A stretch of 64,000 nucleotides of DNA from positions 5,536,001 through 5,600,000 of the forward strand of contig NZ_CP049258.1 in NCBI RefSeq assembly GCF_011046735.1, in the 5' to 3' direction. Shown here in pieces: positions 31,267-41,290 of the stretch (position 1 is the first letter of the stretch; each line of letters opens with the position of its first letter). This DNA comes from Nordella sp. HKS 07 (GTDB lineage Bacteria > Pseudomonadota > Alphaproteobacteria > Rhizobiales > Aestuariivirgaceae). The position numbers and the translations under genes are program-made. The notes beneath the pieces are model-generated. The model was given only the letters and a program-made list of their open reading frames with translations. It did not search any database and was not told the origin of the DNA.

Positions 31267-32325
31267 ATGACAGGCAAAATGACGATTGCGCTTGACGCCA
31301 TGGGCGGCGATGCGGGCCCCGACATGGTACTGCCTGGGGCCGAACTCGCCAGCGTCCGGCATCCGGAACTGCGCTTCCTGCTGTTCGGCGATGGCCCGCG
31401 GCTGGAGGCAATTCTGGCGAAATATCCCCGCCTCAAGGGCCGGAGTGAAGTCCGTCATTGCGAGATCGCGGTCGCCATGGACGACAAGCCGAGCCAGGCG
31501 CTACGGCGTGGCCGCGGCAAATCCAGCATGTGGATGTCGATCGACGCGGTCCGGGCGGGCGAGGCGCAGGGTGTCGTGTCGGCCGGCAATACAGGCGCCC
31601 TCATGGCGATGGCGCGCTTCGTGCTGAAAACCATACCCGGCATAGAGCGCCCGGCCATTGCCGCCATCTGGCCGACCTTGCGCGGCGAGAGCGTCGTTCT
31701 CGATGTCGGCGCGACGATCGGCGCCGATGCCCGCCAGCTTGTCGAGTTCGCGCTCATGGGCGAGGCCATGGCACGCTCGCTTCTGGGCGTCGATCGGCCG
31801 ACTGTCGGTCTGCTCAATATCGGTGTCGAAGAGGTCAAGGGCCTCGAAGAGGTGAAAGAGGCGGGCCGGATTCTGCGCGATCTGGGCCTGCCGCTCGAAT
31901 ATAAGGGGTTCATCGAGGGCGACGATATCGGCAAGGGCACGGTCGATGTCGTGGTGACCGAGGGCTTCACCGGCAATATCGCGCTCAAGACGGCGGAAGG
32001 CACCGCCAAGCAGCTTTCAACCTATCTGAAGCTGGCGCTCACCCGCACGCTCCTGTCGCGGCTCGGCGCCCTTCTGGCGACTGGCGCCTTCGCGACCCTG
32101 CGCGAGCGCATGGACCCGCGCAAGCACAATGGCGGGGTCTTTCTCGGCCTCAACGGTATCGTGGTGAAATCGCATGGCGGGACCGACGCTCTGGGCTTCG
32201 CGACGGCTGTTGATGTTGCCATCGAAATGATCCGCAACGGCCTCGTCGCCAAGATCGCGAGCGATGTCGCCGAAATCAACAAGCATATGGATGCGTTCGC
32301 GCCGCGCGCTGCGGTCAACGCATGA
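31267..32325 (+). CDS. plsX: Phosphate acyltransferase PlsX
   Basis: A 352-residue enzyme that converts acyl-ACP to acyl-phosphate for phospholipid synthesis. Signatures: [63 protein letters not shown] and [20 protein letters not shown] 31279 is a possible alternative start. Its stop overlaps the fabH start (ATGA), so the two fatty-acid genes are translationally coupled. Confidence 0.95.
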
Positions 32326-33317
32326 TGGCAATGAGGTCTGGAGTGCAGCTTCGTTCGGTGATCGAGGGAGTGGGCTCCTATCTTCCGGCCCGCATCATGA
32401 GCAATGCGGATCTGGCGCGCATGGTCGACACCAGCGACGAATGGATTGTCGAGCGCACCGGAATCCGCGAGCGGCGTATCGCCGCCGAGAAGGAAACGAC
32501 CGGCGATCTCGCCATCAATGCGGCGCGCGACGCGCTCGCGCGCTCGGGCGTTTCCGCCGATGAGATCGATCTGATCATCGTGGCGACGACGACGCCGGAC
32601 AACACTTTTCCGGCGACGGCCGTGAAGGTGCAGGCGGCGCTCGGCATCGAGAAGGGATCGGCCTTCGACGTGCAGGCGGTGTGCTCGGGTTTTGTCTACG
32701 GATTGACCGTGGCCGACAGTCTGCTGAAGGCCGGGCAGGGAAGCTGTGCGCTTGTAATCGGCGCTGAAACCTATTCACGCATCCTCGATTGGACCGATCG
32801 CACCACTTGTGTGCTGTTCGGCGATGGCGCCGCGGCCGTTGTCTTGCGCGCCGCCGAGGGCAAGGGGACGAATGAGGATCGCGGCATTCTCGCCGCGCGC
32901 TTGCGTTCCGATGGTCGCTATCGCGACAAGCTGTATGTCGATGGCGGCGTGTCCTCGACCATGACCGTCGGGCATCTGCGCATGGAAGGCCGCGAGGTAT
33001 TCAAGCATGCCGTCGTCAATATCGCGACGGTGATGGCCGATACGATCAAGGATGCGGGGCTCGAGCCTAAAGACATCGACTGGTTCGTGCCGCATCAGGC
33101 CAATCGGCGCATTCTCGAGGGCACGGCGCGGAAACTCGGCGTCACCGAGGAGCGTGTTGTCATGACCCTGGACAAGCATGGCAACACATCCGCCGCTTCC
33201 ATTCCGCTGGCGCTCGACACGGCGGTCAGGGACGGGCGCGTCAAGCGCGGCGATCTGGTGCTCATGGAGGCGATGGGGGGCGGCTTTACCTGGGGAGCCG
33301 TTCTCGTCCGTTGGTAA
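32322..33317 (+). CDS. fabH: 3-oxoacyl-ACP synthase III
   Basis: A 331-residue KAS III that starts fatty-acid chains from acetyl-CoA and malonyl-ACP. Catalytic triad: Cys121 in [11 protein letters not shown], His in [12 protein letters not shown] and Asn in [28 protein letters not shown] and [11 protein letters not shown] are typical. The actual start could be the first or a nearby ATG (32322, 32325, 32334). Overlaps plsX by four bases. Confidence 0.96.
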
Positions 33318-34652: not shown

Positions 34653-35189
34653 ATGTCGAATCTCCCGGAAATCCTCAGCAAGCGCTTCCGCCTCACGCCG
34701 ATCACTCCCGACACGGTGAGCGACGACTGGCTGCGCTGGACGGGTGACCGGGAACTGATGGGCCAGATTAATGCCCGTGTCGTCAAGCTCACGCGAGCGG
34801 ACCTGCAGCGCTACCTCATCTCCCAGCAACAGCAAAAGCGTGCCGTCGTGGGGATCTACGAACGCAAGGACGGCGTTCATGTCGGCCTCTACGAAACCGA
34901 AATCAATGTGGAGCATCGAAACGTGACGATCGATGTTCTGGTCGATCAACGTCGCTACGACCTGGCCAATGTGTTGCGGGAAACGGACCCGGTGCTGCTG
35001 AACTATCTGGCGGGACGATTCGGGTTGGAAAAGGCCGTCGCCAAGATCGTCGAGACCTACAGGCCGGCGATTCTCCATTTCGAGCAGAGCGGGTGGCTCA
35101 AGGAGGGCGTTCTGCGCCAGGAGAATCCCGCGGTGTCAGGGCAGGGACGGCTTGATGTGGTTCAGTTCGGCAAGCTGCTCTCGTCTTAA
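34653..35189 (+). CDS. GNAT-like acyltransferase
   Basis: A 178-residue protein with the RimJ/RimL-type beginning ILSKRFRLTPITPDTVSDDWLRWTGDRELMGQINA and a central strand-turn-strand region (VVGIYERKDGVHVGLYETEINVEHRNVTIDVLVD), which suggest a GNAT fold. The acetyl-CoA P-loop is weak. It shows loose similarity in layout to the GNAT gene at 36561-37139. It starts 53 bases after the tRNA and ends before a 222-base gap that holds the OMP promoter region. Confidence 0.55.
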   Translation: MSNLPEILSKRFRLTPITPDTVSDDWLRWTGDRELMGQINARVVKLTRADLQRYLISQQQQKRAVVGIYERKDGVHVGLYETEINVEHRNVTIDVLVDQRRYDLANVLRETDPVLLNYLAGRFGLEKAVAKIVETYRPAILHFEQSGWLKEGVLRQENPAVSGQGRLDVVQFGKLLSS

Positions 35190-35411: not shown

Positions 35412-36401
35412 ATGACCAGTAAGTTGAAACTCTCGGCAAGCGTTGCCGCGCTCGGGTTGCTCGTAGCGGGAGCCGTTTCATCGGCCCAGGCGGCGGACGT
35501 GGTCGATCAGGGCTGCACGCTCTCCGGCGCCGTCGGCATCGGCTATATGTATGACTGGCAGAGCGCCGACTTCGACTTTGGCGGCCCGGGCATCGATGGC
35601 GATGTAGACTACAACACGCCCTTCGGCGAGGCTGGCGGCCTTGTGACCTGCGGTGGCTTCAACGCCCAGGCCGATTTCGCCTATTACAATCACTCGGGTG
35701 ATGCCGATATCGGCAACTTGAGCGCCGGCAAGGATGATGTCGATGCCGACAATTCGCATTTCGGTGGCGCGCTGTTCTGGCGTGATCCATCCCTTGCCGC
35801 TGCCGGTGTCAGCGCCTCCTGGATCAATCAGGACGTTCTGGGCAAGGACTCCGACACGTTCCGCGTCGGCCTTTTCGGTGAATACTTCATGGAGAATTTC
35901 ACCTTTGGTGCCTCGGTGCACTACTTCAACGGTGAAGTCATCGATATTGGCCCGTTCGATATCGATCAGGATGGTTTCGAGCTGGCTGCCTATGGCCGCT
36001 TCTATGCCACCCCGGACCTGTCGCTGATGCTCCGCGGTGATATGCTCTTCTCCGATCTCGATGTCCCGAACGGGCTCACAAATCAAGATGTCACCCTCGA
36101 TGGCTGGGCGATCACCGGCGAAGCCGAATATCTGGTCTGGGACCAGGGCCTGTCGATCTTCGGCGGCTTGCGTTATGCGGAGCGTTCGCTTGATGTCGAC
36201 AACGAAGACTTCAACGTCGATATCGACGACACGCAGGTCTATGCCGGCTTGAAGTTCTACTTCGGCCAGGATGGCTCGCTGATCGATCGTCAGCGCACCG
36301 GTGTGGTGGACAACACCAGCACCTTCAACGAAAAGCTTCCGAATGTGCTGACGTCAGGTATACTGGGCATCTCGAATGCCATTGCCAACGAACTCCCTTA
36401 A
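35412..36401 (+). CDS. Porin-like outer-membrane beta-barrel protein
   Basis: A 329-residue exported protein with signal peptide about 1-28 (LGLLVAGAVSSAQAAD) and a mature part rich in alternating aromatic and Gly/Asp strands, e.g. GFNAQADFAYYNHSG, FRVGLFGEYFMENFTFGASVHYF, LSIFGGLRYAERSLDV and QVYAGLKFYFGQDGSL. Strands appear to end near residue 285; the last 45 residues are different. Only two cysteines, near the N-terminus. A monocistronic gene with a strong terminator. The exact porin family is not clear. Confidence 0.7.
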   Translation: MTSKLKLSASVAALGLLVAGAVSSAQAADVVDQGCTLSGAVGIGYMYDWQSADFDFGGPGIDGDVDYNTPFGEAGGLVTCGGFNAQADFAYYNHSGDADIGNLSAGKDDVDADNSHFGGALFWRDPSLAAAGVSASWINQDVLGKDSDTFRVGLFGEYFMENFTFGASVHYFNGEVIDIGPFDIDQDGFELAAYGRFYATPDLSLMLRGDMLFSDLDVPNGLTNQDVTLDGWAITGEAEYLVWDQGLSIFGGLRYAERSLDVDNEDFNVDIDDTQVYAGLKFYFGQDGSLIDRQRTGVVDNTSTFNEKLPNVLTSGILGISNAIANELP

Positions 36402-36424
36402 GCGAAGCTGAGGACGTAACAGGG

Positions 36425-36458
36425 GGAAGGAAACCTACGGGTTTCCTTCCTCTTTTTT
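36425..36458 (+). terminator. Terminator after the porin-like gene
   Basis: Perfect 11-bp stem GGAAGGAAACC (36425-36435) and GGTTTCCTTCC (36440-36450), loop TACG, then TCTTTTTT. Confidence 0.93.
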
Positions 36459-36560
36459 GTCTCGTGGCGTAGAAAACATATGACCCGCAATGCCTGTGCG
36501 GTTTTGACGAAGCCCGCAAAGCCAGATAGTAGAGAGCCTCGCGGATAGTGGTTTTCATCC

Positions 36561-37139
36561 ATGGCCGGCTTACCTCCGTCATCGCTCACGCTTGAATCAC
36601 GAAACTTCATCCTTCGCCGGCTGACTAAAGCCGATGCGAGTGAGAGGCTGTTTTCATGGGCAGATGACGATCTGGCGGCGGAGATGCTCAACACGAAGCG
36701 AAGGCAGTGGAGCCTCGCGGAGCAGGCTGCCTTCTTTGCCGGCAAGCCGGACAAGGTCCTTCTGGCTATCGTGCCGCGCCAGCAGGAATATCCGATTGGC
36801 TTCTACAGCCTGCATCTGCAGCCGCGCATCGGAGTCTTCACGATCTCGCATTTGATCAGCGACGCGGCATGGCGCGGCAAGGACCTCACGGCCGAGACGT
36901 CCGATCCCATCTATGAGTATCTTTTCAACAAGCTCGATTATGCCAAGGCCAAGGCGAATGTGCGCCCGCAGAACCGTCCGATGCTGTGGCTGATGCTCGG
37001 AGGCAAGAACTGGCGCAAAGAGGCGCGACTGGTCGGGCATCTGCGTGACGCCGAGACGGGCGAGCGCAGCGATCTTCTGGTCCTGGGGATGCTTGCGCAG
37101 GAGTGGCGCGCCGCGCGCGAGCCGCGCTCTGCCGCGTGA
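36561..37139 (+). CDS. GNAT-family acyltransferase (first gene of P450-ACP cassette)
   Basis: A 192-residue RimJ/RimL-like GNAT: LTLESRNFILRRLTKADASERLFSWADD at the start, IGFYSLHLQPRIGVFTISHLISDAAWRGKDLTAETSDPIYEYLF as the core with a modified CoA loop, and ANVRPQNRPMLWLMLGGKNWRKEARL in the Asn-rich C-terminal part typical of the fold. Its TGA overlaps the GTG start of the P450-like gene (GTGA), and that gene in turn overlaps the ACP gene, so the three are one coupled unit. It may acylate a small molecule or a carrier-bound product. Confidence 0.7.
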   Translation: MAGLPPSSLTLESRNFILRRLTKADASERLFSWADDDLAAEMLNTKRRQWSLAEQAAFFAGKPDKVLLAIVPRQQEYPIGFYSLHLQPRIGVFTISHLISDAAWRGKDLTAETSDPIYEYLFNKLDYAKAKANVRPQNRPMLWLMLGGKNWRKEARLVGHLRDAETGERSDLLVLGMLAQEWRAAREPRSAA

Positions 37140-38176
37140 GGGCCGTGAAATCCTATCAGCTTCATTCGGCGGACGACCGGCATGCCGTGTTTGCCCAACT
37201 GTCACCGCGTATTTGGCTCGAGAATGATCTGTTGCGCGCTTGGGTTGTTACCGACCCGGAAGTTATCCTTCGAATATTCCGCAGTCCCTTGGCGGTGGTT
37301 TCGAGCCTGACCGACGTTCTCAAGGCCATTCGAGAGAATTACGGTACCGAGCTCCCGAACGTGGCCTATGCCTGCGGCGTGTTGCCCCTTCTTGTTGCCG
37401 ATGAGGCACATCCCGCGGCGCGCAAGGGCTTTGCCACATTCCTGGCCGCCCGCCTGTCGGAGTTGGACGCGGAGCTGGCCGACCTCTCAAAAGCCTGCCT
37501 TGCTCCGCTGGGCAGAAAGGGACACGTGGATCTCGTGTCCGAAGTCGTCGATCCCTTCATCCATCGTGTGTTTTCGGTCTTCCTCCAGTGTGATTTGCCG
37601 CCGGAATTCCTGTCAATGCATGTCGGCGACATCCTGTCTTTCAATACGAATCTCGCGCGCTTGAAGAATCTCGAAGGCCGCATTGCAAAGACGCTCGCTT
37701 TCCTGCGCGAAACCACCCCGAATGACGACGATATCGCCTGGAAATTCACTTGCCTGGTCTTCGGCCTCGATTCGCTCGCGATGATGCTGACCGAGGGCAT
37801 TGTTGCGGCGCTACGCGACGATCCGGTCGGATCGGCAGGCACGCGCCTGCCGATCTTCCCGATCGAAACCGGCGTCCCAGTGACGTTCAGGCGCGCAAAG
37901 GCAGACTTCGACATGGATGGCTGCGCCTTCAAGGCAGGCGATCTGATCCGTCTGCAGCTGCAATCTTTCGGCTATTCACGGGCTGCCGAGCATAGCAAGT
38001 TCATCTTTGGGGCCGGCATGCATTCATGCGTCGGCAAGCAGCTGTCGCTGCGCATCTGGGAGAGTTTCAAACGGGACTTCGACGCGCTCGATCTGAGGGC
38101 CCGCATGGCCAACTATCAGCTCATGCCGTCTCATTTTATCATTTTGCATAAATTGGTTGAGGTAGAAGTCCAATGA
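37136..38176 (+). CDS. Divergent cytochrome P450
   Basis: A 346-residue P450-like protein, shorter than the usual 400. The heme loop is intact: FIFGAGMHSCVGKQLS with Cys298 as thiolate ligand. The I-helix region reads CLVFGLDSLAMMLTEG, where the usual A-G-x-D/E-T-T is changed and the Thr is Ser. The ExxR motif of helix K is not recognisable; ETGVPVTFRRAKADFDMDG comes where it should precede. GTG 37136 overlaps the GNAT stop; GTG 37145 is an alternative. It overlaps the following ACP gene by four bases, so its substrate may be carried on that ACP. Confidence 0.8.
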   Translation: MRAVKSYQLHSADDRHAVFAQLSPRIWLENDLLRAWVVTDPEVILRIFRSPLAVVSSLTDVLKAIRENYGTELPNVAYACGVLPLLVADEAHPAARKGFATFLAARLSELDAELADLSKACLAPLGRKGHVDLVSEVVDPFIHRVFSVFLQCDLPPEFLSMHVGDILSFNTNLARLKNLEGRIAKTLAFLRETTPNDDDIAWKFTCLVFGLDSLAMMLTEGIVAALRDDPVGSAGTRLPIFPIETGVPVTFRRAKADFDMDGCAFKAGDLIRLQLQSFGYSRAAEHSKFIFGAGMHSCVGKQLSLRIWESFKRDFDALDLRARMANYQLMPSHFIILHKLVEVEVQ

Positions 38177-38430
38177 TGACGGCCGACGAAGCCAGAGGCA
38201 TGGTCCTGAGTGTTCTGCAGAATCTCGAGCTCATCGATGAGAAGCAGATGAGGGAACTCCTCGGGACGCGGATATTGGATATCGAACTGGCGGGCCTGGG
38301 GATCGACAGCATGAAGGTCGTCGACCTCTGCGTCGGACTTGAGGAGCGGATCGGGAGGGAAGTCGAGGTCGAGGAACTTATCGAAAATCCGTCCGTGAAC
38401 AGCCTTGCGGCGCATTTTGCCAAAGGGTGA
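38173..38430 (+). CDS. Stand-alone acyl carrier protein
   Basis: An 85-residue carrier protein. The phosphopantetheine site is Ser46 in LGIDSMKVVDLCVGLEERIG, followed by EVEVEELIENPSVNSLAAHFAKG, the usual helix III and C-terminal helix. It is not the housekeeping AcpP (motif DSL, acidic) but a specialised carrier. ATG 38173 overlaps the P450 stop (ATGA); ATG 38176 is equally possible. Together with the P450 it suggests modification of a tethered acyl or aminoacyl group. Confidence 0.85.
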   Translation: MMTADEARGMVLSVLQNLELIDEKQMRELLGTRILDIELAGLGIDSMKVVDLCVGLEERIGREVEVEELIENPSVNSLAAHFAKG

Positions 38431-38531
38431 TTGACCCTGCGATGCTGTGGCGTATTTGCCGCATATGATGGACTTCCGGTCGCAAGCTGCGTCAGAGATT
38501 GAGTTTTCCGCGCAGCCGAATGCGGCGGTAA

Positions 38532-39809
38532 TCAAGAGTATGACTTTTGGCCGATGGCGCTCGCAGGCCCTCTCCGCTGCTGGACCTCATAAGCGATCGT
38601 CGCGGCGAATAACCCCCACATGCAGCCGAGCAGCAGGTAGAAATGCCGCCAGTGATCGATGTCGATCTGCACGCCCTGCAGGACGACGGCGACGAGCGGG
38701 GCATAGATGGCGATGGCGTGGTGCTGCCAGGGCGTTGGGGTCCTAATCGCGCGCCAGCCCGCCCAGATTGTCATGATGACCAGCGCGAAGAAGGCGAAGC
38801 CGCCGAGCCACCCATAGGAAGCGAAGGCGTTGAGATAGACGTTATGCGGGTCCTGCCCGTAGATGTAGCGGAAGTGCCTGGGATTCATGCCGCCGGGCTG
38901 GGTCAGTACGCGCGGTAGGCTGGCGATCTGCGAGCCGAAGCGCCCGGTCTCGCCGACATCGTAGGATTGACTGAGGCTGGCGCGAATTTCGAAGATGGTC
39001 CTGATCTGCGGAACCTGCAGCGCAACGACGCCTGCGACGGCCAAGGCCAGGGCGCCGCTCGCCGACAGGAAGATGACCCGGTTGCGCAAGGCGCGGCTCG
39101 GCGCGAGCAGGAGGGTAAGGACGACGAGCAATATGCCCGAGCCGACCAGATTGACCCAGGCGCCGCGCGAGAAGGCGAGGAAGAGCGCCAGCGCGATGAT
39201 GAGTATCGCGATGAAGGCGAGAATCGGGCGCCGGCTCCTCCTGAGCAAAATATCCTGGGCCAGAAAGACGAAGGGCGGCACGAGGAAAGGAGCGAAGACA
39301 TTGGGATCCTTGAATGTGCCCTGCGCGCGGCCCATCGGCGCCCATGCTGCCGCCGTGCCGCCGACGTCGAAATAGGTGAGGATGCCGATGAGCGAGCCGA
39401 TGACGCCGGCCGTGATGTAGCCGCTGCGAATGATCTCCATGCGCGCATTGGTGTCGCTCGTCACCAGGAAGCAGAAGAATAGGCCAGTCACGGCCATATA
39501 GTATGAGATGATGGTGAACCAGACGGAGATCTTGTCGTCGAGCGCGCCTTCGAGCCCGACCGCGCCGCCCAGATTATAGAGAACGAGAAAGAAGACGAGG
39601 GGCAGCGAGACGAGCGGCACCTTGAGGCCGCCTGCGGGCAGGAACAGGAGGAAAGCCAGCACGAAGATCAGCTCGTAGGGAGCTGGCTCGATCACGACGA
39701 GCCACATCGATGCAACCAGCAGCCACAGCACCACCTTGCGCCAAGTCTCGAGGCTGCCCAGCATCCTTCGTGGGGCGTCAAGGGGAGATTGTGCAGCGGC
39801 GTCGGTCAA
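38532..39809 (-). CDS. O-antigen ligase/polymerase-family membrane protein
   Basis: A 425-residue polytopic protein, about 10-12 helices, of the Wzy/O-antigen ligase (WaaL-like) family. Diagnostic features: RAQGTFKDPNVFAPFLVPP, AFSRGAWVNLVG, and the periplasmic loop YIYGQDPHNVYLNAFASYGWLGG containing the PHN motif. It polymerises or ligates undecaprenyl-linked glycans on the periplasmic side. It is the last gene of the minus-strand part of the polysaccharide locus, 14 bases after a sugar-transferase remnant. Confidence 0.88.
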   Translation of the reverse strand: MTDAAAQSPLDAPRRMLGSLETWRKVVLWLLVASMWLVVIEPAPYELIFVLAFLLFLPAGGLKVPLVSLPLVFFLVLYNLGGAVGLEGALDDKISVWFTIISYYMAVTGLFFCFLVTSDTNARMEIIRSGYITAGVIGSLIGILTYFDVGGTAAAWAPMGRAQGTFKDPNVFAPFLVPPFVFLAQDILLRRSRRPILAFIAILIIALALFLAFSRGAWVNLVGSGILLVVLTLLLAPSRALRNRVIFLSASGALALAVAGVVALQVPQIRTIFEIRASLSQSYDVGETGRFGSQIASLPRVLTQPGGMNPRHFRYIYGQDPHNVYLNAFASYGWLGGFAFFALVIMTIWAGWRAIRTPTPWQHHAIAIYAPLVAVVLQGVQIDIDHWRHFYLLLGCMWGLFAATIAYEVQQRRGPASAIGQKSYS

Positions 39810-39823
39810 TAGGCTTTCTCCGT

Positions 39824-40078
39824 CTAAAGCAGCGAGGTGAGCGTGCGGAACAGAATATAGAGATCGGAGGCGGTCGACCAGTTCTCGATATCATGAAGGT
39901 CGTGCTCGACTCGCCGGTGCAACCTCTCGAGAGTGTCAAGCGGCGCATGGATGAGGGGAGCCTCGAGAATTTCGGCAGGAAGCGGCATGTCGGCATCGAC
40001 GCCGAGCTTGGCTAGAAGACCGCCAGCGGCACGCTCGTGCTGGAAAAAGTCTTCCTTGCGCATCACAGTTGGATTCAA
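39824..40078 (-). pseudogene. Remnant of a priming sugar transferase (C-terminal piece)
   Basis: An 84-residue ORF whose last 38 residues, LDTLERLHRRVEHDLHDIENW and STASDLYILFRTL, match the C-terminal helix region of polyprenyl-phosphate hexose-1-phosphate transferases (WcaJ/PssY type). The catalytic core that should precede it is absent, and the first 45 residues do not resemble the family. So the initiating enzyme of this locus seems deleted, or the fragment has been recruited. It lies directly upstream of the polymerase gene. Confidence 0.6.
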
Positions 40079-40182
40079 GTTGCGACAGGTTGTTTTCCCT
40101 GAACCGCCGGGTGAGCAACTTCGAGGTCCGCGCTGGCGGACCCTGGCGTTAATGAAAATGAAGGAGCGTGCTTAATGGGAGC

Positions 40183-41290
40183 TTAACGCGCCGACCCGGT
40201 CCGTGTTTCCCTATAGAAATCGGCGATCTTGCCGCACATGGCCTCGGCCGAGAACCGGGTTCTGGCCGCATCGGCGAGAGCGCGGGCTTGCCTCATGTGT
40301 TCCTCTCCGTGAGAGAGGCTCTTCCTGATGGCCGCCGCCAGGACTTTCCGGATCAGACGGCGGTGAGAGTATTTCCGCCGGCAATATTTCCGGAATGCCG
40401 CCCACATCCGTGGCGATGAGCGGCTTTCCCGCGGCTACCGCCTCGAGGATGACATAGGGAAGCGATTCCGCCCGCGACGGCATGACCAGCACCTGGCCGA
40501 GACCGAAAGCCTCGCGGGCCGGTAGCGCGCCTGTGAAACGGACCCGCTCGATGAGTCCGAGCCGCTGCGCCAACGCCTCGAATTCCGGCCGCTCCGGTCC
40601 GTCGCCGACCAGCGTGGCGCTTACCTGTCGCCAGTCGCTGAGCAGACTCAGCGCCTCGAGAAGGTCGCTCACCCCTTTGAGCTGGCGCATCTCGCCGAGA
40701 AAGACCAGATCGCGCGCCTCAGGCGCGAGCGGCACGGCGGCGAATTCCTCCGGCCACAGGCCGTTATGGACGACGCGCCAGGGCAGACCGCCGAGTCCGA
40801 TTTTCTCTTCGAAGACGCGCCTTTCATAGTCGCAGACGAAGAGGAGGCCGGAGCCGCGCCTCAGCATCAGCTTCTCCGCGCCGAGGAACAGGGCGCCGCG
40901 TGGCGACGACCAGGCGTAGTGGAGGCTGCCGCCATGCGGGGTGTAGAGCGAAGGGATCTTGAGGCGCGCGCCGGCCAGCCTCGCATAGACGCCGCCCTTG
41001 GCGCCGTGGCCATGCAGAATCTCCGGCCTGACCCTGGCGGCTATGCGCGCGATCGCGGAAGCCGCTTCGACATCGGCGAGGCCCGGCATGCGGCCGATCG
41101 GCAGCCGGTGGATGCCGAGGCGGCAGTAGGGGGCGAGAGCCGCGAGCGCCTGTTCCGCCGCCGGGCCGCCGGTGCTGGAATCGCAGACGATGCCGATCTC
41201 ATGATCGAGCGCCGTCAAACCGCGCGCGAGATCTCGAACATGACGGAAGAGGCCGCCGACCGGGGTGCGAAAGACTTGCAGGCTACGCAT
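40183..41290 (-). pseudogene. GT4-type glycosyltransferase with C-terminal frameshift
   Basis: A group 1 glycosyltransferase. N-terminal domain from MRSLQVFRTPVGGLFRHVRDLARGL; donor domain with DLVFLGEMRQLKGVSDLLEAL and SLPYVILEAVAAGKPLIATDVGGIPEI, the EX7E-type site. After DPES the frame shifts: an extra G in the run at 40341-40342 moves the true C-terminus (LAAAIRKSLSHGEEHMRQARAL, ending at 40183) into another frame; without it the protein would be about 368 residues. As written it ends at 40211 with a scrambled tail of about 35 residues. The catalytic residues precede the break, so partial function is conceivable. Confidence 0.8.

Follow-up and report, generated by a model that had tools for sequence, protein, structure and literature searches.

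P450BioI (CYP107H1) of Bacillus subtilis uses fatty acids linked to an acyl carrier protein (ACP) as its substrate and contacts their phosphopantetheine (PMC10741444). P450s without the ExxR motif are represented by CYP157 of Streptomyces, which is described as conservon-linked, not ACP-linked (PMC3599690). Among acyltransferases, carrier-bound donors are described for SbzC and SbzI, two GNATs, and through a citation for FeeM (PMC6331615), and for the ACP-dependent N-acyl amino acid synthases (PMC8762209). The RtxC/HlyC toxin-activating acyltransferases combine a GNAT-like fold with an acyl-ACP donor and a protein lysine as the acceptor (PMC8339906).

Here we describe a unit encoding a GNAT-type protein (GNAT2), a short P450 and a stand-alone ACP, found in 64,000 nucleotides of the Nordella sp. 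HKS 07 genome (the window); other loci and genomes are denoted by L and G numbers. P450BioI is the best structural match of the modelled window P450, the likeness lying in the predicted P450 fold, whereas identity in the structural alignment is 13% and the window protein is shorter and lacks ExxR. The family to which it belongs differs from P450BioI further in that every member has its own ACP gene adjoining, and it resembles CYP157 in the missing ExxR, although CYP157 retains the Glu and alters the Arg (EVLW, EQSLW), while the family P450s are also shortened there. With the FeeM and SbzC/SbzI systems, the window unit shares a GNAT and a stand-alone ACP, but it includes a P450 as well, and the word P450 has 0 occurrences in PMC6331615. 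An adenylating enzyme stands beside the cassette at L069 and with a GNAT and an ACP at L162; none adjoins the window unit. RtxC/HlyC enzymes resemble GNAT2 in the GNAT-like fold and, if the donor proposed here by analogy is right, in the use of acyl-ACP. The window GNAT is not a member of the RtxC sequence family, Acetyltransf_3 being its sole Pfam match at E 1, and its partner is a beta-barrel, with no RTX protein in the ORF lists. No description of the arrangement was found in the portions seen of open-licence PubMed Central texts. We consider the cassette real and conserved, and its chemistry a variation on what is known of carrier-protein P450s and ACP-dependent GNATs, not a category of its own. 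The reading we prefer, with a probability of about one half, is that the P450 acts on acyl groups held by its own dedicated ACP and that the off-loading enzyme is exchangeable.

Organisation of the gene unit

The preliminary description had placed the GNAT, the P450 and the ACP in a single coupled unit, which our analysis supports, and the strand, order and end coordinates of the three genes were all borne out by the ORF list (Table 1). It had also reported four-base overlaps at both junctions. The ATGA between P450 and ACP (38173-38176) stands, but the GTGA between GNAT and P450, though in frame, is doubtful as a start. In the sister genome G003 the GTG equivalent to it reaches a stop two further codons on, while the GTG or ATG of [V/M]KSYQLH is a start common to the window, G001, G003 and one G002 copy; we therefore prefer the GTG lying five bases past the GNAT stop, so that the P450 is short, as claimed, but more likely of 343 than of 346 residues. 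Genuine four-base GNAT/P450 overlaps occur at L016, L017 and L069, and an exact in-frame four-base overlap was read by eye at 14 of 23 P450-ACP junctions, the window counted in.

Table 1. Positions of the unit and of associated features in the window.
Feature	Position	Strand	Basis or remark
GNAT1, divergent GNAT2 paralogue	34653-35189	+	Recognised via a profile including GNAT1 and its relatives
Outer-membrane beta-barrel, conserved C-terminal tail	35412-36401	+	OMP_b-brl 2.1e-6, 28.5 bits against a cut-off of 28.7
Terminator-like hairpin in the barrel-GNAT2 gap, 15-pair stem, T-rich tail	36421-36454	+	Terminator scan
GNAT2, RimJ/L-type acyltransferase-like, first gene of the unit	36561-37139	+	Acetyltransf_3 E 5.2e-8 (Pfam)
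Short P450 without ExxR	37145-38176	+	343 aa from GTG 37145; 346 aa if GTG 37136
Stand-alone ACP, 85 aa, attachment site LGIDSMK	38173-38430	+	PP-binding E 4.5e-10 (Pfam)

GNAT1 had no Pfam match over the cut-off, the best being Acetyltransf_4 with E 0.23. The terminator scan found 2 terminator-like sites against a mean of 1.9 in shuffled sequences, a count that is not significant, and no promoter-like sites were found across 36300-38700. The window ACP gene is followed by an opposite-strand gene matching Wzy_C (1.2e-8, Pfam). A polysaccharide neighbourhood, as noted earlier for the window, is common within the genus (L014-L016) but none was seen at L067 or L069, so that this context is weak evidence on function. 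At 39824-41290 (-), the window has an 84-aa ORF where G001-G003 carry an uninterrupted one of about 503 aa, which on our own reading is presumably sugar-transferase-like. The start of the 84-aa ORF resembles the N-terminus of the longer protein and its end the C-terminus, so the gene seems, from its sequence, to have lost its middle; the C-terminus of the GT4 ORF next to it is also unusual.

It had further been stated that neither an adenylating nor a ketosynthase enzyme is present. The former part holds for the window, but the latter is contradicted by the coordinates of an upstream same-strand ORF at 32322-33317, which we take from its sequence to be FabH (ketosynthase III); it follows an ORF at 31267-32325, also on the same strand, presumably PlsX. 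Both look like housekeeping genes, and none was seen adjoining the cassette in genus g5 (L067, L069).

The short P450 and its carrier protein

The window protein is, by sequence homology, a genuine P450. A PDB search with a profile of 14 of its relatives (A3) returned 362 distinct sequences at E 0.01, with a best E of 1.9e-15, and the AF2 model, built from five sequences, had a pLDDT of 77.7 and a pTM of 0.77. In this model, residues 287-298 (heme loop) had pLDDT values below 50, and no helix was predicted from the end of the I-helix (227) to the strand at 249. Foldseek gave 1318 matches at E 0.001 with P450s on top, led by P450BioI with acyl-ACP (3ejd, E 3.2e-11, TMq 0.66); among the ten leading matches, eight were P450BioI chains from acyl-ACP complexes and two were P450Blt. 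Profile search and model together thus confirm the P450 fold. By comparison with curated models, the window P450 matched nothing in Pfam up to E 1, while NCBIfam gave weak matches only (best E 0.091, 2 of 3 over the heme loop, none above a cut-off); therefore, model-based annotation may overlook it.

The GNAT-P450-ACP order occurs at seven loci, each in a different genome, in two genera. Neither outcome named in the preliminary description as refuting it, an order confined to this genome or the lack of a P450 fold, has thus come about. The wider family comprises 25 P450s at 24 loci in at least 21 alphaproteobacterial genomes. An ACP ORF adjoins all 25 P450s: in 23 cases it is co-oriented and lies downstream, in L088 it comes before the P450, and in L086 it is convergent with it. 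The ACP profile was built from eight of these ACPs and found the other 17. In comparison, none of 48 loci with ordinary P450s (30 PF00067 loci with flanks up to 1.5 kb, and 18 among the matches listed) had an ACP, and none of their 2487 ORFs matched the profile at E 10, while the unrelated ACPs of L161 (9.7e-9) and L162 (8.2e-8) were detected by it. The pairing of 25/25 against 0/48 rules out chance neighbourhood, although it is not exclusive to this family, since at L161 an ACP adjoins an ordinary P450. All 25 family ACPs have the attachment Ser, preceded by Asp in 24 and by Thr in L088, and the LGIDSMK site described for the window copy is there. Over the 19 of 25 pairs that remained once close copies were removed, distances between P450s and between ACPs were correlated (Mantel r 0.85; 0 of 9999 permutations), as would also be expected from plain joint inheritance.

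Within the taxonomic family of the window genome, 18 of 69 genomes had a match at E 1e-6. Near full-length members (E 2.8e-49 or better) were present in 13 of the 69, and the remaining five had only partial matches (E 1.7e-9 to 3.6e-7), which we took for ordinary P450s or fragments. Matches at E 1e-20 were found in 11 of 397 genomes of the order sample, five of them from the same taxonomic family as the window, and in 3 of 385 of the class sample, the window genome counted in; the single genome matched at E 1e-15 among 398 of the phylum sample was the window genome itself. Among plasmid records there was one match, annotated as cytochrome P450, over 47% of the query. The window genome, which belongs to the same genus as G002, carries a second family copy with 27% identity; downstream of this copy are an ACP of its own and an alpha/beta hydrolase. 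One family P450 (L087 7662-8692, G780) is split across two overlapping frames, perhaps by an assembly error.

A BioI-like supply of pimelate for biotin would fit P450BioI as the closest fold and as an enzyme that cleaves ACP-linked fatty acids (PMC10741444). The patchy distribution in 13 of 69 genomes, the presence of two cassettes in some genomes, and neighbours such as the barrel, the GNAT and a sulfotransferase all speak against such a role, which we regard as very improbable. The route of Alphaproteobacteria is reportedly BioZ (PMC7645780), and this also counts against it, and by eye no biotin gene stood out in the ORF lists.

The motifs of the 25 family P450s were compared with those of 21 ordinary P450s from loci among the matches listed. 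The heme-ligand Cys is present in 25/25 and a His two residues before it in 23/25; the C-helix His and Arg that contact the heme propionates are present in all 24 with data; and the position after the K-helix holds Arg in 23 and Lys in 2. The heme loop FGAGMHSCVG and the missing ExxR of the window copy were described correctly, there being no such motif in register. In the family as a whole, 3 of 25 members carry an in-register ExxR (spacing 8), compared with 21/21 ordinary P450s (spacing 9-10). These three, L021, L022 and L068, whose E-x-x-R lies one or two residues nearer the conserved Arg than usual, rule out a deletion throughout all 25. The I-helix of the window copy, which had been called altered, reads GLDS, an intact acid-alcohol pair that is little changed from the G-x-D-T/A-x-D-T of 21/21 ordinary P450s, while in the family an acid (Asp/Glu) is present in 20/25 and Ser/Thr in 16/25. 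The stretch between the I-helix Gly and the Arg that follows the K-helix spans 40-43 residues, compared with 50-53 in ordinary P450s, and the stretch between that Arg and the Cys spans 41-48, compared with 58-60. A FastTree tree of 47 sequences grouped the 25 family P450s in one clade (support 0.74), in which the eight GNAT-linked P450s were a subclade with support 1.0.

Among the window, G001 and G003, dN/dS was 0.046-0.082 for the P450, 0.078-0.192 for the ACP, 0.107-0.218 for GNAT2 and 0.126-0.150 for GNAT1, with 0.040-0.066 for fabH in comparison. Because synonymous distances to the window are large (P450 dS 1.3), G001-G003 is the safer pair (P450 0.046). Judged from these ratios, the P450 family is under purifying selection.

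Since ExxR is mostly lost, and the I-helix acid is lost in 5/25, some family P450s may not be oxygenases. The short P450 could then be a docking partner, with or without heme, that controls access of the ACP, and the losses (ExxR in 22/25, I-helix acid in 5/25, hydroxyl residue in 9/25) as well as the shortening by about 10 residues from the I-helix to the conserved Arg and by 10-19 from there to the Cys would agree with this. We nevertheless find the idea doubtful for the family, given the Cys in 25/25, the propionate contacts in 24/24 with data, the GLDS retained in the window copy, the low dN/dS, and the CYP157 precedent of P450s without ExxR (PMC3599690).

Third partners, barrels and loading enzymes

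The constant unit is the P450 with its ACP, and the GNAT is one among several third partners. Over the 24 loci, the third gene was a GNAT in 7, an alpha/beta-hydrolase type in 12, a member of family A5 in 4, and none in 1 (L088). GNAT2 lies directly upstream of the P450 in the window and at L014-L017, L067 and L069. The hydrolase-type ORF adjoins the pair or lies within about 1 kb of it: L013 matches Abhydrolase_1 (8.2e-18), with L018 and L019 in the same cluster, and nine others are divergent (L022, L068, L071, L081-L085, L087). Those submitted to Pfam (L082, L085, L087, L022, L071 and L081) were below the cut-off or without a match. In an alignment of 8 of the 9, L084 being left out, Ser, Asp and His are invariant and are read as a catalytic-type triad from the sequences. 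Family A5, with an invariant His, occurs near the pair at L020, L021, L070 and L086, the last at a distance of about 1.3 kb and in the opposite orientation. An assignment of A5 as an LpxL-like acyltransferase was rejected, there being no Pfam match and no meaningful PDB match (E 1.2, 2.2). We infer that the third partners are all acyl-handling enzymes, which for A5 is a guess.

Sulfotransferase-like ORFs were found near the cassette at 6 of 24 loci (4 independent cases), compared with 0 of 18 control loci, using profiles made from five of those same proteins and a second protein of L083. An analogy to olefin synthases, which join an acyl-AMP ligase, an ACP, a sulfotransferase and a thioesterase, was set aside: the profiles were made in this way, the sulfotransferases are of differing types and none lies beside the window unit. 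An Stf0 gene is present elsewhere in 4 of 5 genomes of the window genus. At L082 (4049-11909) and L083 (3886-13057), P450-ACP-hydrolase cassettes are flanked by sulfotransferase-like ORFs, of which one of two tested passed the Pfam cut-off, and by an ORF of 1254-1255 aa that we take to be glycosyltransferase-like; from their sequences, these flanks hint at a sulfated glycan or lipid.

In all seven GNAT-type loci the barrel, GNAT1, GNAT2, P450 and ACP genes are on one strand. Five of them (the window, L014 with two barrels, L015, L067 and L069) have the barrel placed between the two GNAT genes, and L016 and L017 have their barrels before GNAT1; in L016, GNAT2 and the P450-ACP pair are moreover each present twice. 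Of the 16 barrel matches in the genus, 10 are at the cassette, including the sole matches of G000 (the window genome) and G004; a profile search adds one weak, unlinked barrel in G000. Related components recur elsewhere. In G021 (L161 4410-11459, -) a row of four tandem barrels stands with an ACP, a GNAT and a full-length P450 unrelated to the short family (PF00067 6.4e-39, ETLR as ExxR), and in G028 (L162) an AMP ligase, a GNAT and an ACP adjoin a barrel. No family P450 was found in G021 or G028, and within genus g10, to which both belong, one of six genomes (G017) has it. Thus, barrel, GNAT and ACP are found together with an oxidising or a loading enzyme more than once.

It is possible that only the P450 and ACP form a functional pair, and that the GNAT is an ordinary acetyl-CoA enzyme of RimJ/L-like type merely sharing the operon. 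GNAT2 falls in the Acetyltransf_3 family and its Foldseek matches are GNATs, largely acetyl-CoA enzymes, from a model with a pLDDT of 57.1, too poor to weigh; moreover, a GNAT is missing from 17 of 24 loci, which also counts against an off-loading role. On the other hand, the GNAT is invariably directly upstream within one well-supported clade, and GNAT, ACP and barrel occur together again at L161 and L162, both without a family P450. We consider an ordinary GNAT unlikely.

After the last strand, the barrel has a tail, RTGxxDNTSxFxEKLP (A8), whose named positions do not vary among 8 aligned cassette barrels with 35-81% identity to the window copy. The two GNATs might lipidate an envelope protein, acylating the barrel, or relatives sharing its tail, with a P450-oxidised chain borne by the ACP. 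This reading is weakened because similar tails occur in G033, G072 and G073, without a GNAT, ACP or family P450 match nearby, and because the tail Lys is replaced by Arg in some copies; we hold it to be rather improbable. With these barrels and the extra unlinked copies of G001, G002 and G003 carrying like tails, the tail does not mark out the cassette, and its interpretation as a cassette-specific acylation tag is unsupported. Beside an unlinked copy in G002 (L173 8232-12747) are ORFs of 1085, 308 and 112 aa, which by eye we take to be Cas9, Cas1 and Cas2.

Beside the window unit, neither a loader nor a redox partner was seen. The earlier claim that a loader is absent thus holds for an adenylating enzyme in the window, but not for its relative L069, where an Stf0-type sulfotransferase (6.8e-7) and an acyl-AMP ligase follow the ACP. 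The ligase, whose ORF is truncated at the contig edge, matches AMP-binding (7.2e-57) and, though falling short of the curated NCBIfam cut-offs, best 'fatty acyl-AMP ligase' (8.1e-84), and its best PDB match is a Fatty Acyl-Adenylate Ligase (7.5e-55). In each of the five genomes of the genus, the sole match to this ligase at E 1e-30 lies away from the cassette. In G000 it lies at L130 5171-9462 (-), about 305-309 kb, with E 2.3e-38, in a four-gene cluster of ORFs that we take to be acyl-AMP-ligase-like, SDR-like, a second dedicated ACP-like and an alpha-oxoamine synthase, and which looks like sphingolipid synthesis.

The load of the carrier could instead be a small acid, such as an amino acid, which the P450 would hydroxylate in the manner of NRPS pathways before transfer. 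DltC, an aminoacyl carrier, heads the weak NCBIfam matches of the ACP, and the L162 ligase, which stands with a GNAT and an ACP, also matches the amino-acid adenylation model (2e-51). However, the ligase found beside a family P450, that of L069, has fatty-acyl-AMP ligases as its nearest matches, and by fold the P450 is best matched by P450 complexes with fatty-acyl-ACP; such a substrate seems to us improbable.

A possible route and its meaning

The preferred reading, a P450 acting on acyl groups of its dedicated ACP, may be set out as four steps. The phosphopantetheinyl transferase of the cell would convert the ACP to its holo form. A fatty acyl group would then be loaded, by the adjoining acyl-AMP ligase at L069, and in the window strain presumably from the acyl pool of the cell or by a distant ligase. 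In the third step the short P450 would dock to the ACP, the phosphopantetheine-linked chain would enter the pocket as in P450BioI, and the P450 would hydroxylate or cleave it; the fold, the Cys ligand and the constant ACP pairing are in support of this step. Finally, GNAT2 would transfer the oxidised acyl group from the ACP to an amine, its donor being carrier-bound like those of FeeM and SbzC/SbzI, with a hydrolase-type or A5-type enzyme taking its place in other branches. Since an outer-membrane barrel gene goes with the GNATs, we favour an envelope target as the acceptor. Of the pathway first proposed, in which a group is loaded, oxidised and acylated, oxidation of an ACP-bound group by the P450 with a GNAT as the acylating enzyme is the best reading, but it was too narrow for the family, in which the third partner varies.

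The family offers a natural test of what a P450 requires, as a classic P450 motif has been shed in most members under apparent purifying selection and an ACP adjoins every time. It would also be a compact handle on carrier-bound P450 oxidation beyond large assembly lines, with the off-loading enzyme exchanged naturally, and may lead to a new lipid, amide or envelope modification.
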